From positions 1 to 56,325 of the IMG/VR virus record IMGVR_UViG_3300042868_007474: a DNA stretch of 56,325 nt; one strand, 5' to 3'. The notes below the pieces were generated by a model, which ran no database searches, was not told where the DNA came from, and saw only the letters and a program-made list of their open reading frames with translations. Positions 40,429 to 50,462 of the stretch are shown piece by piece. The position numbers were made by a program, and so were the translations under genes. Each line of letters begins with the position of its first letter. Within the stretch, counting starts at the first letter, position 1. Source of the stretch: a virus.

Positions 40429-40761
40429 ATGGACTACCAGATTTACGAAGTTGTAATTCGCTACCTTGACACCCCAGACGAAGAACCCCACGCCGTCCTT
40501 GTGTCGGTCGGGGAAGACCAGCCCGAGGAGGGTGGCGAGGATGACGAGGCTTGTTTTTTCCATTTCTACCCGTTTGAGTGGGAAGACCTTTGCAAGACCA
40601 TTAAGGAGGGTTTCCGCTATGATGTAGACGGCGAGTTCCGAGTTGAGAACCACGGGGACGAGTATGTTGAAGACCTTGCCAATGAGCCAGACGAAGACCC
40701 AGAGCCAATGGGCGATGAGGTCGAAGGCGAGACCGAGCAAGAACCAGAACAGGGTGCTTGA
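40429..40761 (+). CDS. 110-residue acidic protein, unknown
   Basis: Beta-rich front (MDYQIYEVVIRYLDTPDEEPHA), acidic EEGGEDDE turn, FYPFEWEDLCKTI, then a strongly acidic tail (NEPDEDPEPMGDEVEGETEQ). Start 10 nt after CATACT. The tail could be a DNA mimic; no motif found. Ends the plus-strand block before the RNA region. Confidence 0.72.
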   Translation: MDYQIYEVVIRYLDTPDEEPHAVLVSVGEDQPEEGGEDDEACFFHFYPFEWEDLCKTIKEGFRYDVDGEFRVENHGDEYVEDLANEPDEDPEPMGDEVEGETEQEPEQGA

Positions 40762-40805
40762 CGGCTCTGCCGCTTGTTAGGTATCTTGCAGTAACTTAAA
40801 CAACT

Positions 40806-40843
40806 GAAAGACCCCCCACACGAAACACCGTGTGGAGGGTCAG
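40806..40843 (-). terminator. terminator of RNA-1
   Basis: Minus-strand hairpin GACCCTCCACAC GGTGTTTC GTGTGGGGGGTC followed by TTTC. Very strong stem (10-11 bp); it also may stop plus-strand read-through. Confidence 0.8.
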
Positions 40844-41137
40844 TTGTTATGTATGAACCAACGCTAAATGAAGGCTAACAGGGATAGTTCCAGCGACAAC
40901 AATAACATTCCGTGCCTTGCAACCAACAACAACAACGCTTGGGGCTCTTACGATGCTCCCCACTTCCCTGTTAGCACAAATTAATCGGAGATTTTTCGAT
41001 AGTCCTTTTCACCCTGCTCTGGTTAGACCAATCGAGGGTGTCGGCTCACCGCTGGTAGTCGGTGGCAGTCCTTACGGATACTGCAAGGGGGCGGGCCTCA
41101 CGGCTTGTCGCATCTCCAAAGTGTTTCAATCAACGAT
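40806..41137 (-). ncRNA. candidate structured RNA-1 (about 330 nt)
   Basis: A minus-strand promoter (TTGCAT 41166-41171, 16-nt spacer, CATACT 41144-41149) would start RNA near 41137, ending at the hairpin 40806-40843. No ORF longer than about 14 codons begins near the 5' end. Potential helices: GCC GTGA GGC, CACCG ... CGGTG, CACCCT ... AGGGTG enclosing TGGT CTA ACCA, ATCG ... CGAT, and an 11-bp long-range helix GCTAACAGGGA (40965-40975) with TCCCTGTTAGC (40874-40884). Its first residues resemble RNA-2. No known class was recognised (not tmRNA, RNase P or group I intron by eye). Confidence 0.62.
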
Positions 41138-41143
41138 ACATAC

Positions 41144-41171
41144 AGTATGCATAACCTTTCGGATAATGCAA
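41144..41171 (-). promoter_or_regulatory. promoter of RNA-1
   Basis: TTGCAT, 16-nt spacer, CATACT then GTATGTATC on the minus strand, matching the array class-II form although all neighbouring genes are on plus. Confidence 0.8.
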
Positions 41172-41179
41172 GAAGAAAG

Positions 41180-41373
41180 TTGAATGTCTTGTGCCTTTGC
41201 AGATGGGGGAAGTTCTCCGTATTCCCACCCGCTTTGTCCGCACAAGCATCTTGGGTTTGTAGTCGGAGCGTTCCGCTCCCGCTGTCTCTTCCCCCGCTTT
41301 GGACACGGGGTGATAGCCATTGGCAACCAGCGAGGTTTCTACAAACTTGCACAAAGTGATTTCAATTAACAAT
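41180..41373 (-). ncRNA. candidate structured RNA-2 (about 190 nt)
   Basis: Promoter at 41380-41407 (minus). The transcript would begin near 41373 and share its start (GTTRATTGAAA-CACTTTG) with RNA-1. Nested pairing: CTTTGT with ACAAAG, GTTTGTAG with CTACAAAC, and internal hairpins CCCCG/CGGGG, GGAGCG GAA CGCTCC and GGGAA/TTCCC. The 66-codon ORF on this strand crosses the RNA-1 promoter and does not look like a protein. No terminator is visible before the RNA-1 promoter, so read-through into RNA-1 is possible. A rod-like fold recalls 6S RNA, but no diagnostic feature confirms it. Confidence 0.58.
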
Positions 41374-41379
41374 AAATAC

Positions 41380-41407
41380 AGTATGCATACCTCCGAAAGA
41401 AATGCAA
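41380..41407 (-). promoter_or_regulatory. promoter of RNA-2
   Basis: TTGCAT at 41402-41407, 16-nt spacer, CATACT at 41380-41385 on the minus strand. Confidence 0.8.
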
Positions 41408-41504
41408 GCACCATTTTAACATTCATTTGCTAGGTCGCTATATGATTGAAAATAGTTGAATAAACATCTTGAAAAAAATCTAAAACCTGTAATACTGTAT
41501 CTCT

Positions 41505-41693
41505 ATGACACTCGCTCAATACCAGCAAGGAATGAAACGACTCGCCGAAATCCGCAACAGCCTTACCACGGCTCGGCAGGAACTCGCCTCCGAGAAGAAC
41601 TACGACCTGCGTGAAATGCATCAAGCGGTTATCAATGCCCTTATGGCAGAAATGCAGGAAACCGAAACCTTAATGAACGGACTTCAAAAATAA
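41505..41693 (+). CDS. 62-residue helical protein, unknown
   Basis: MTLAQYQQGMKRLAEIRNSL; coiled-coil type helices ending ETETLMNGLQK. Promoter TTGAAA-N16-AATACT, ATG 9 nt after it. Unknown role. Confidence 0.72.
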   Translation: MTLAQYQQGMKRLAEIRNSLTTARQELASEKNYDLREMHQAVINALMAEMQETETLMNGLQK

Positions 41694-42614: not shown

Positions 42615-43490
42615 ATGACCACGAACCTCACCACCACCACCGCCTCGGAAGCCATTGAGCGTCAGACTGAAAAGTTTGACTACACGGTTTCCCAAGTCCC
42701 GTTCCACCTCCCGAACGGCTCGCAGACCCGTTTTCTCGCTAATGTGCGGGATGACAACGGCGAAGTCCTCGGGTGCGTCTCCGACCGCTACGAAGTCCTC
42801 CAAAACTCCGATATGCTCGGGGCTTCCGAAGACCTCTTCAAGGCCGAGGGCTTCTCTAACTTCAAGCGTAAGACCGTTTGCACGAACGGCGGGGCTCGCA
42901 TCCGAGCCATTTATGACTTCCCCGACCACGGCTTCAAACTGTCGAACGGGAACGACCTCACCTTCCGCTTGAAGGTTCAGAACTCCTTTGACGGCTCGCT
43001 CCGTGCCTCGTTCCAAGTCGGTCTCGTTCGCCTCGTTTGCACGAACGGCCTTGCCCTCCCCGTTGCGGCTGTTGGTATGTCCCGCAAGCACACCCAGCAC
43101 CTCGACCCGAACGGTCTCCGTGAGGCGTTCGCCCGCTCCATTAACGCCTTCAAGGAGTCCGCTCCCCTCTTCAATCGGATGATTGAGACCCGCTTGACGC
43201 AGGAGGAGGGCAACAGCATCCTGCTGAACTTCGAAAAGTCCAAGGTTATGAGCGAGCGGATGCGTGAGGGCATACAAGCGGTTTGGGAGCGTCCGACTTA
43301 CGCCGAGGACAGCACCCGCAACCTGTTCAACCTCTACAACGCCACGACCCAGCACCTTACCCATTCGGTTGAGGGCAAGCGGTTCGAACTTGCCGAGCGT
43401 GTGAACACGGGAGTCCTCAACTCCATCTCCAAGGCGGTGAAGCGAAACAACCTCGCCTCGCTGATGGTTGCCAACCTCGGGGATAACTAA
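42615..43490 (+). CDS. DUF932-like phage/plasmid protein
   Basis: 291 residues, the largest array gene. RFLANVRDDNGEVLGCVSDRYEVLQN near the front, KRKTVCTNGGARIRAIYDFPD, RASFQVGLVRLVCTNGLALP and an AERVNTGVLNSISKAVKRN end agree with DUF932 (phage/plasmid-like) proteins. The family is common on mobile DNA; the function is unknown, possibly DNA-associated. ATG preferred after the ACCAAACCAAAATACAT leader; an in-frame start in the promoter is not used. A long GC-rich hairpin follows the stop. Confidence 0.78.
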   Translation: MTTNLTTTTASEAIERQTEKFDYTVSQVPFHLPNGSQTRFLANVRDDNGEVLGCVSDRYEVLQNSDMLGASEDLFKAEGFSNFKRKTVCTNGGARIRAIYDFPDHGFKLSNGNDLTFRLKVQNSFDGSLRASFQVGLVRLVCTNGLALPVAAVGMSRKHTQHLDPNGLREAFARSINAFKESAPLFNRMIETRLTQEEGNSILLNFEKSKVMSERMREGIQAVWERPTYAEDSTRNLFNLYNATTQHLTHSVEGKRFELAERVNTGVLNSISKAVKRNNLASLMVANLGDN

Positions 43491-49062: not shown

Positions 49063-49437
49063 ATGAGATTGAACAAGTTATGCAAATCTTGCGGAGAGGT
49101 CAAGGATATAACATCCTTCTATGGGCATAACAAGGAATATAATACTACCCATTGGTGCAAGCCTTGCTTCAACAAGTATCAGCAAGCAAAGGCAGTTTCA
49201 AAGAAGAAAGTGTTTGTTAGGTTTCTTGGAAACAAGTGCAAGCGTTGTGGAATAAAGCACACAGGAAAGAATACTCCGATATTTGACTTTCACCATACTG
49301 ACGCTTCAACCAAGGACGGCGATTGGTCTAAGTTCAGACATATGTCCCTCGACAACATTCGTGTAGAGATGGCTAAATGCATCCTTCTATGCTCTAATTG
49401 TCATCGGATGCATCACCACAATAAGGCTAAAAAATAG
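49063..49437 (+). CDS. HNH endonuclease, likely homing type
   Basis: 124 residues with a C-x-x-C / C-x-x-C pair near the front (CKSCGEVKD, CKPCF), a further C-x-x-C (CKRCG), FDFHHTD and a C-terminal CILLCSNCHRMHHHN, the classic HNH form with His-His and two Cys pairs. It lies on plus between tRNA-Arg and tRNA-Gln, which are on minus. That placement is typical of free-standing homing nucleases that target tRNA loci. No phage pathway link is seen. Confidence 0.85.
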   Translation: MRLNKLCKSCGEVKDITSFYGHNKEYNTTHWCKPCFNKYQQAKAVSKKKVFVRFLGNKCKRCGIKHTGKNTPIFDFHHTDASTKDGDWSKFRHMSLDNIRVEMAKCILLCSNCHRMHHHNKAKK

Positions 49438-50018: not shown

Positions 50019-50462
50019 TTAAACAGAATACCAGAAGAACTTAGACTTTGGTATCTTGTAAAAGTATTCGCTGTCGTTCACAAACCTGTTTGGGGACTCC
50101 CTTGGAGTCGTCCCCTTAACGATAGCCATGATTTCGTCTTCGTTGCATATGCCGATTCTCTTCAAGGAAATCGACACGATGGCGTATTCGTGTAGACTAT
50201 ACTTTTTTGTGTCAAAGAACTTAACCTTTCTTTGCAGGAAGTTTACCTCTGCAAACGGGAACTCTTCTTTATCCCACACCATCCTTCGCTCTACTTCTAC
50301 ACACAGACTATGGTCTTCTGTGATTAAGTCAACACCATATTTGTCTGGGTTGTCGATTAGCACTATGCCGATGCGACCATACCACTCCTTAACGACCTCC
50401 CTTGCTGGGAGGTCATTCTCATCGTGAAGACTTTGTTCGAATGGTTTAGATTTTATATTCAT
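50019..50462 (-). CDS. putative PD-(D/E)XK nuclease inside tRNA cluster
   Basis: 147 residues. DKYGVDLITEDHSLCVEVERRMVW gives a D ... E-x-E arrangement, followed by FPFAEVNFLQRKVKFFDT, similar to small restriction-type or homing nucleases. It fills the space between tRNA-Pro and tRNA-Ile on the same strand. The catalytic Asp/Glu/x-Lys set is not fully convincing (ExE rather than ExK), so activity is uncertain. A restriction enzyme remnant is another option. Confidence 0.6.
   Translation of the reverse strand: MNIKSKPFEQSLHDENDLPAREVVKEWYGRIGIVLIDNPDKYGVDLITEDHSLCVEVERRMVWDKEEFPFAEVNFLQRKVKFFDTKKYSLHEYAIVSISLKRIGICNEDEIMAIVKGTTPRESPNRFVNDSEYFYKIPKSKFFWYSV

Follow-up and report, generated by a model that had tools for sequence, protein, structure and literature searches.

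A probable structured non-coding RNA next to a covarying RNA family in an uncultured lambda-like phage

The stretch of DNA analysed here in full, 56,325 nucleotides of a viral record and hereafter termed the window, harbors a gene-free gap of 743 nt (40762-41504) flanked by two plus-strand ORFs (40429-40761 and 41505-41693). The original prediction had placed an untranslated RNA, RNA-1, on the opposite strand of a gap of about 740 nt, and this arrangement was borne out, with RNA-1 running on the minus strand from approximately 41137 to 40806 (~330 nt, 332 nt by these ends). The features of the locus and the corresponding regions of related phages are collected in Table 1.

Table 1. Features of the RNA-1 locus in the window and of RNA islands in related phages
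Feature	Position	Strand	Description
RNA-1 promoter	41140..41171	-	TTGCAT-N14-TGCATACTGTAT; -35 TTGCAT at 41171-41166, 16-nt spacer, extended -10 TGCATACT
Degenerate boxA-like element at RNA-1 transcript start	41118..41134	-	GTTGATTGAAACACTTT
RNA-1 conserved core	40975..41128	-	closing helix and four hairpins; from comparison with L002
RNA-1 variable 3' domain	40874..40975	-	closed by exact 11-bp helix GCUAACAGGGA/UCCCUGUUAGC
3' hairpin, terminator-like	40810..40841	-	14 pairs, then UUUCAGUUGU
RNA-2, pseudoknotted	41186..41355	-	R2 covariance model; upstream of RNA-1
RNA-2 promoter	41376..41407	-	same promoter family as that of RNA-1
RNA-2 boxA-like element	41354..41370	-	GTTAATTGAAATCACTT
Structured-RNA islands (RNA-0, RNA-2, RNA-3, others) with tRNAs	L077 5500-4860; L083 15425-14930		
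Structured-RNA islands (RNA-0, RNA-2, RNA-3, others) with tRNAs	L087 15462-15036; L096 1300-2120; L108 6413-5670		

The promoter of RNA-1, which predicts the same transcript start (~41137) as had been proposed before, is by its sequence one of the phage's own promoter family, whose TTGCAT-N14-TGCATACTGTAT pattern has 12 matches in the window at three or fewer mismatches and none in shuffled sequence. Members of this family precede many small genes between 34948 and 48269. A repeat of 38 bp (89% identical), which includes the boxA-like element, spans the starts of both RNA-1 and its upstream neighbor RNA-2. At the other end, the strong terminator of 10-11 bp that had been claimed was only partly confirmed, as the stem is strong and even longer than described, while the T tract that follows it (TTTCAGTTGT) is weak. 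It was also observed that the terminator hairpin within 40784-40848 can be extended by AACAACU/AGUUGUU flanking a UUUC tract, a pairing that would compete with termination.

The conserved core of RNA-1 is closed by a helix (41119-41112/40992-40985), inside which lie four hairpins at 41111-41091 (GUGA loop), 41084-41065 (GUAA loop), 41064-41047 and 41040-41010. The 3' domain is bounded by the long-range helix of the original prediction, 40965-40975 (TCCCTGTTAGC) with 40874-40884 (GCTAACAGGGA), which is exact over 11 bp and is present in the minimum free energy structure; the fold of this domain, however, is no better than that of shuffles (z -0.78). The whole 332 nt folds better than every one of 100 shuffled controls (z -3.63), but most of this excess is attributable to the terminator hairpin, since the z-score falls to -1.35 when the hairpin is removed; the conserved 5' core alone gives -2.44. 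Fold energy by itself would not carry the case for RNA-1, which is carried by comparison. The suggestion that the 11-bp helix represents the terminal inverted repeats of a mobile element was discarded, no second copy having been found in the window or the loci examined.

When the DUF932-like protein encoded nearby (42615-43487) was used as query, nine IMG/VR contigs were retrieved, one of which, L002, has the RNA region. The 5' core of RNA-1 (~135 nt) is 93% identical between the two phages, with nine substitutions over 134 aligned columns; in 50-bp bins the identity amounts to 0.84-1.0 over RNA-1 as against mostly 0.3-0.75 around it, and it drops abruptly on the 3' side of the core. L002 lacks the 3' domain that carries the 11-bp helix and has in its place a short stretch of different sequence before a terminator-like hairpin. 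The latter has a 14-bp stem, whose lower part is conserved and whose upper part is replaced yet paired, and which was not called by the terminator scan. At the position of the RNA-1 promoter L002 carries TTGACA-16-CATCAT. The conserved part of RNA-1 is thus the 5' core rather than the domain of the 11-bp helix, the feature that had been stressed at the outset.

All 38 predicted core pairs, including those of the four hairpins, form standard pairs in both phages. Three of them are changed, all without loss of pairing, two by double compensatory substitution (41038/41012 and 41037/41013) and one by a change from U-A to U-G in the closing helix, which pairs on the minus strand only and therefore supports that strand as the RNA. 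With nine substitutions placed at random, two double compensations arose in 0.12% of trials and every pair was kept in 0.43%, figures that err on the optimistic side, the structure having been derived from the very sequences under comparison. When the alignment was slid, at most 41% of positions paired, compared with 100% of the true pairs, whereas a shuffle control on the two-sequence alignment was uninformative (132/500). Since hairpins 1-3 are invariant between the phages, the covariation test reaches no further than hairpin 4 and the closing helix. Selection at the RNA level on part of the core is supported by these pairings.

Immediately upstream of RNA-1 lies RNA-2, which the R2 model detects at E 7e-13 or better in 15 loci, one of them that of the window. 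The other phages with RNA-2 were first reached via the window's primase/helicase-like protein, and RNA-2 was found in them by sequence. Helices P3, P5 and P6 together with a UGUC/GACA pseudoknot are 93.7% paired, both sides are changed in 12 of 26 pairs, and the covariation score is 0.442 as opposed to 0.178 in shuffled and no more than 0.150 in slid controls. This covariation over 15 loci established RNA-2 as a genuine RNA family on the claimed strand. In the window, R2 matches only its own locus, so RNA-1 does not represent another copy of it. No terminator was found in a scan between the two, and transcripts of ~570 nt (RNA-2 plus RNA-1) and ~332 nt (RNA-1) are consequently expected; RNA-1 would make up the portion farther from the promoter in a joint unit with RNA-2 that starts at ~41373.

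In most relatives, RNA-2 belongs to an island of structured RNAs that has the terminase gene on one side and the gpW-like/portal genes on the other. Its companions there include RNA-0 and, downstream of RNA-2, RNA-3, in whose closing helix five of 13 pairs are double-changed with all cells paired. A tRNA-Thr follows RNA-2 in L077 and L108, lying there between RNA-2 and RNA-3, and elsewhere tRNAs stand beside the island. Most islands open with a TTGACA promoter followed by a boxA, GTTCTTTAAMA, placed 34-37 nt after the first position of the -35 element; the E. coli rrnH leader, with its rrn leader boxA TGCTCTTTAACA, served as control. The rrn-type boxA pattern, GYTCTTTRAMA just downstream of the promoter, is present in most of the relatives' islands, and the window retains only GTTNNTTGAAANNACTT, with two mismatches to the relatives' core, to which its boxA has apparently decayed. 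RNA-2 and RNA-1 of the window and of L002 sit among small genes instead of by the terminase and portal genes, and the stretch preceding the window's gpW/portal genes showed no such island. RNA-1, ~8 kb from the window's own tRNA array, occupies the slot downstream of RNA-2 that RNA-3 holds in the relatives. Homology between RNA-1 and RNA-3 was considered and found no support, as of the RNA-3 hallmarks (its closing helix plus GCUGAYGA/UCRUCCAGC) only the UUUGG...CC ends are in common.

To date RNA-1 is known from two phages, the window and L002. Exact RNA-1 words in IMG/VR (L012, L014, L015, L017-L027) proved to be chance matches in unrelated sequence, with L002 the only real one, and two such words gave none among 84,980 genomes. 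The R1 model built for RNA-1, run on the relatives' contigs and unfiltered on their islands, yielded nothing convincing besides the window and L002; INPHARED phages and plasmids contained no real match to the RNA-1 region, nor did INPHARED phages to the islands of two relatives. At the gathering cut-off, Rfam 15 recognized only tRNAs in the window, and permissive scans of RNA-1 gave weak, chance-level matches only. No Rfam match of RNA-1 to RNase P, tmRNA, 6S, SRP RNA, known ribozymes or riboswitches was obtained, in agreement with the earlier statement that it resembles neither tmRNA nor RNase P, and RNA-1, RNA-2 and RNA-3 alike are without a match in Rfam 15 or the sequenced phages searched. 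The Thermales-rpoB motif (RF03109) scored 17.9 bits on the variable 3' domain against a cut-off of 77.3 bits, with UUUGUGCU, GUAAGAGCC and CCCUGUUAGC occurring in order; this was taken as chance, given that the model matches 8 of 14 control genomes (one over the cut-off) and that the domain is absent in L002.

Taken together, the minus-strand pairing, the compensatory changes, the lack of a shared frame and the lack of an Rfam family uphold the initial reading of an unknown structured RNA, and RNA-1 is very probably a genuine, independent non-coding RNA. The closest analogues are GOLLD and ROOL, ornate, cage-forming RNAs of phages and prophages from tRNA islands, whose function is unknown and of which GOLLD sometimes carries tRNAs in its linker (PMC12286853). 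Like them, the RNAs described here appear to be untranslated, structured phage RNAs with complex folds, often near tRNA islands, and the tRNA between RNA-2 and RNA-3 in two relatives recalls the GOLLD linker. The proximity to tRNAs holds for the RNA-2 family, while for RNA-1 itself the tRNAs lie at that distance of ~8 kb in the same genome. On the other hand, the Rfam covariance models of both are unmatched here, and each of them is a single RNA of 600-800 nt, in contrast to the modules of ~110-170 nt seen here. The relatives' islands also resemble rRNA and tRNA operons in having a strong TTGACA promoter with a boxA at once behind it, after which comes a long stretch of structured RNA that is not translated and whose modules have tRNAs between or next to them, but there is no rRNA and the window boxA is degenerate. 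In adjoining terminase and portal genes, the relatives' RNAs are reminiscent of the phi29 pRNA, from which they differ in that RF00044 is unmatched, the large terminase is of another type (phrog_15) and the RNAs of the window lie in another region than terminase and portal. RNA-1 is best read as a putative member of a new tRNA-island-associated array of phage non-coding RNAs, GOLLD/ROOL-like in setting and style but matching neither.

As to what RNA-1 does, we lean slightly toward an independently transcribed, untranslated RNA that would have a structural role and act in trans. It would be transcribed from the phage-family promoter, alone or together with RNA-2, and would persist as a stable RNA acting by its fold, with the core offering its invariant loops, those of GNRA type among them, to a partner that may be protein or RNA. 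Its production in quantity might be ensured by rRNA-like, boxA-led transcription, as might that of the tRNAs beside the RNA-2 relatives. Given that tRNAs accompany the RNA-2 family, its most likely field of action is translation or the processing of tRNA and other RNA during infection; a role of this kind has been discussed for GOLLD and ROOL. The complementarity of RNA-1 to E. coli rRNA and to the phage tRNAs did not exceed the shuffled level, and there is accordingly no direct pointer to the ribosome. A complement of 10 nt to the peptidyl-transferase region of 23S rRNA (UGAGCCGACA) was rejected, in that shuffled cores do equally well (95% point 11) and an indel falls within it in L002.

Several other explanations need to be weighed against this structural, trans-acting RNA. 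That the conserved stretch encodes a small peptide is highly improbable, even though a plus-strand frame (GSPLVVGGSPYGYCKGAGLTACRISKV) is open across the core in both phages. An indel of 1 nt shifts its upstream part between the window and L002, and the ends also disagree, the L002 frame stopping soon past the identical stretch and that of the window continuing through the RNA-1 promoter. The identity extends to third positions, and coding would not predict compensatory pair changes. The search for a conserved protein thus disclosed a frame with differing start and end, and owing to indels no reading frame is common to both phages, consistent with the claim that no ORF fits. That the core is not under selection and is similar merely through recent exchange between the two phages would suit the two known copies and the abrupt fall of identity on the 3' side; the nine substitutions with every changed pair kept, as well as the conservation of the promoter and the neighboring RNA-2, render it improbable. 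Antisense regulation by base pairing to mRNAs of the phage or its host, for which a free-standing RNA of 332 nt with a promoter and a terminator-like end would be suitable, is if anything more improbable still, inasmuch as the longest complement elsewhere in the window, of 13 nt, shows no sign of exceeding chance and lies in the variable domain absent from L002, and the conserved core is mostly paired.

Two alternatives that draw on the island setting are merely unlikely rather than improbable. A cis-acting element, in which the nascent boxA and hairpins modify RNA polymerase for read-through of terminators, has models in the boxA/Nus system of rrn operons and the put RNAs of HK022, and agrees with the spacing of boxA in the relatives and with the position of several islands upstream of head genes on the same strand. 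The known put RNAs are smaller than the conserved core of RNA-1, however, and RNA-1 in the window runs into a terminator-like hairpin and a convergent gene, which leaves little downstream to be read; a terminator-like hairpin also separates the island from gpW/portal in two relatives (G023 and G016). This explanation is accordingly considered quite unlikely. Somewhat less so is a decoy or mimic acting in trans, which would titrate some factor of the host, for instance a defence enzyme that cleaves tRNAs, the RNA polymerase or a protein that binds RNA; it gains from the occurrence of the RNA-2 family alongside tRNAs and from the invariant loops of RNA-1, and loses from the lack of a tRNA-like elbow or acceptor and of a match to 6S or any other known family.

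With at least RNA-2 and RNA-3, two covariation-backed families are added, and RNA-1 is a likely third. GOLLD and ROOL rank among the large natural RNAs of unknown job beside phage tRNA islands, and the RNAs reported here are short enough for one-by-one study, while the promoters and boxA leaders predict the timing and manner of their production, so that a common function of such arrays would become testable. A bolder and tentative possibility is that the arrays constitute a new modular class of ornate RNA, in which boxA-led, rRNA-operon-like transcripts would deliver separately folding RNAs (RNA-0, RNA-2, RNA-3, or RNA-1 in the window phage) and tRNAs that jointly build an RNA particle or alter host translation.

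Some further observations concern boxA and the tRNAs. Additional boxA-like words (gttctttgaca) occur outside the described promoters at 17005 in L083 and at 50220 in the window, the latter within an ORF. ARAGORN with introns allowed, applied to the similar locus L102 only, made no tRNA-like call of the type seen on the minus strand of L095, where two tRNA-like stretches of 129 and 177 nt possess an acceptor, a D arm and a T arm, with a long insert replacing the anticodon arm. Inside the minus-strand tRNA array of the window, a plus-strand ORF (49063-49437) has, by eye, the look of an HNH/zinc-finger protein.
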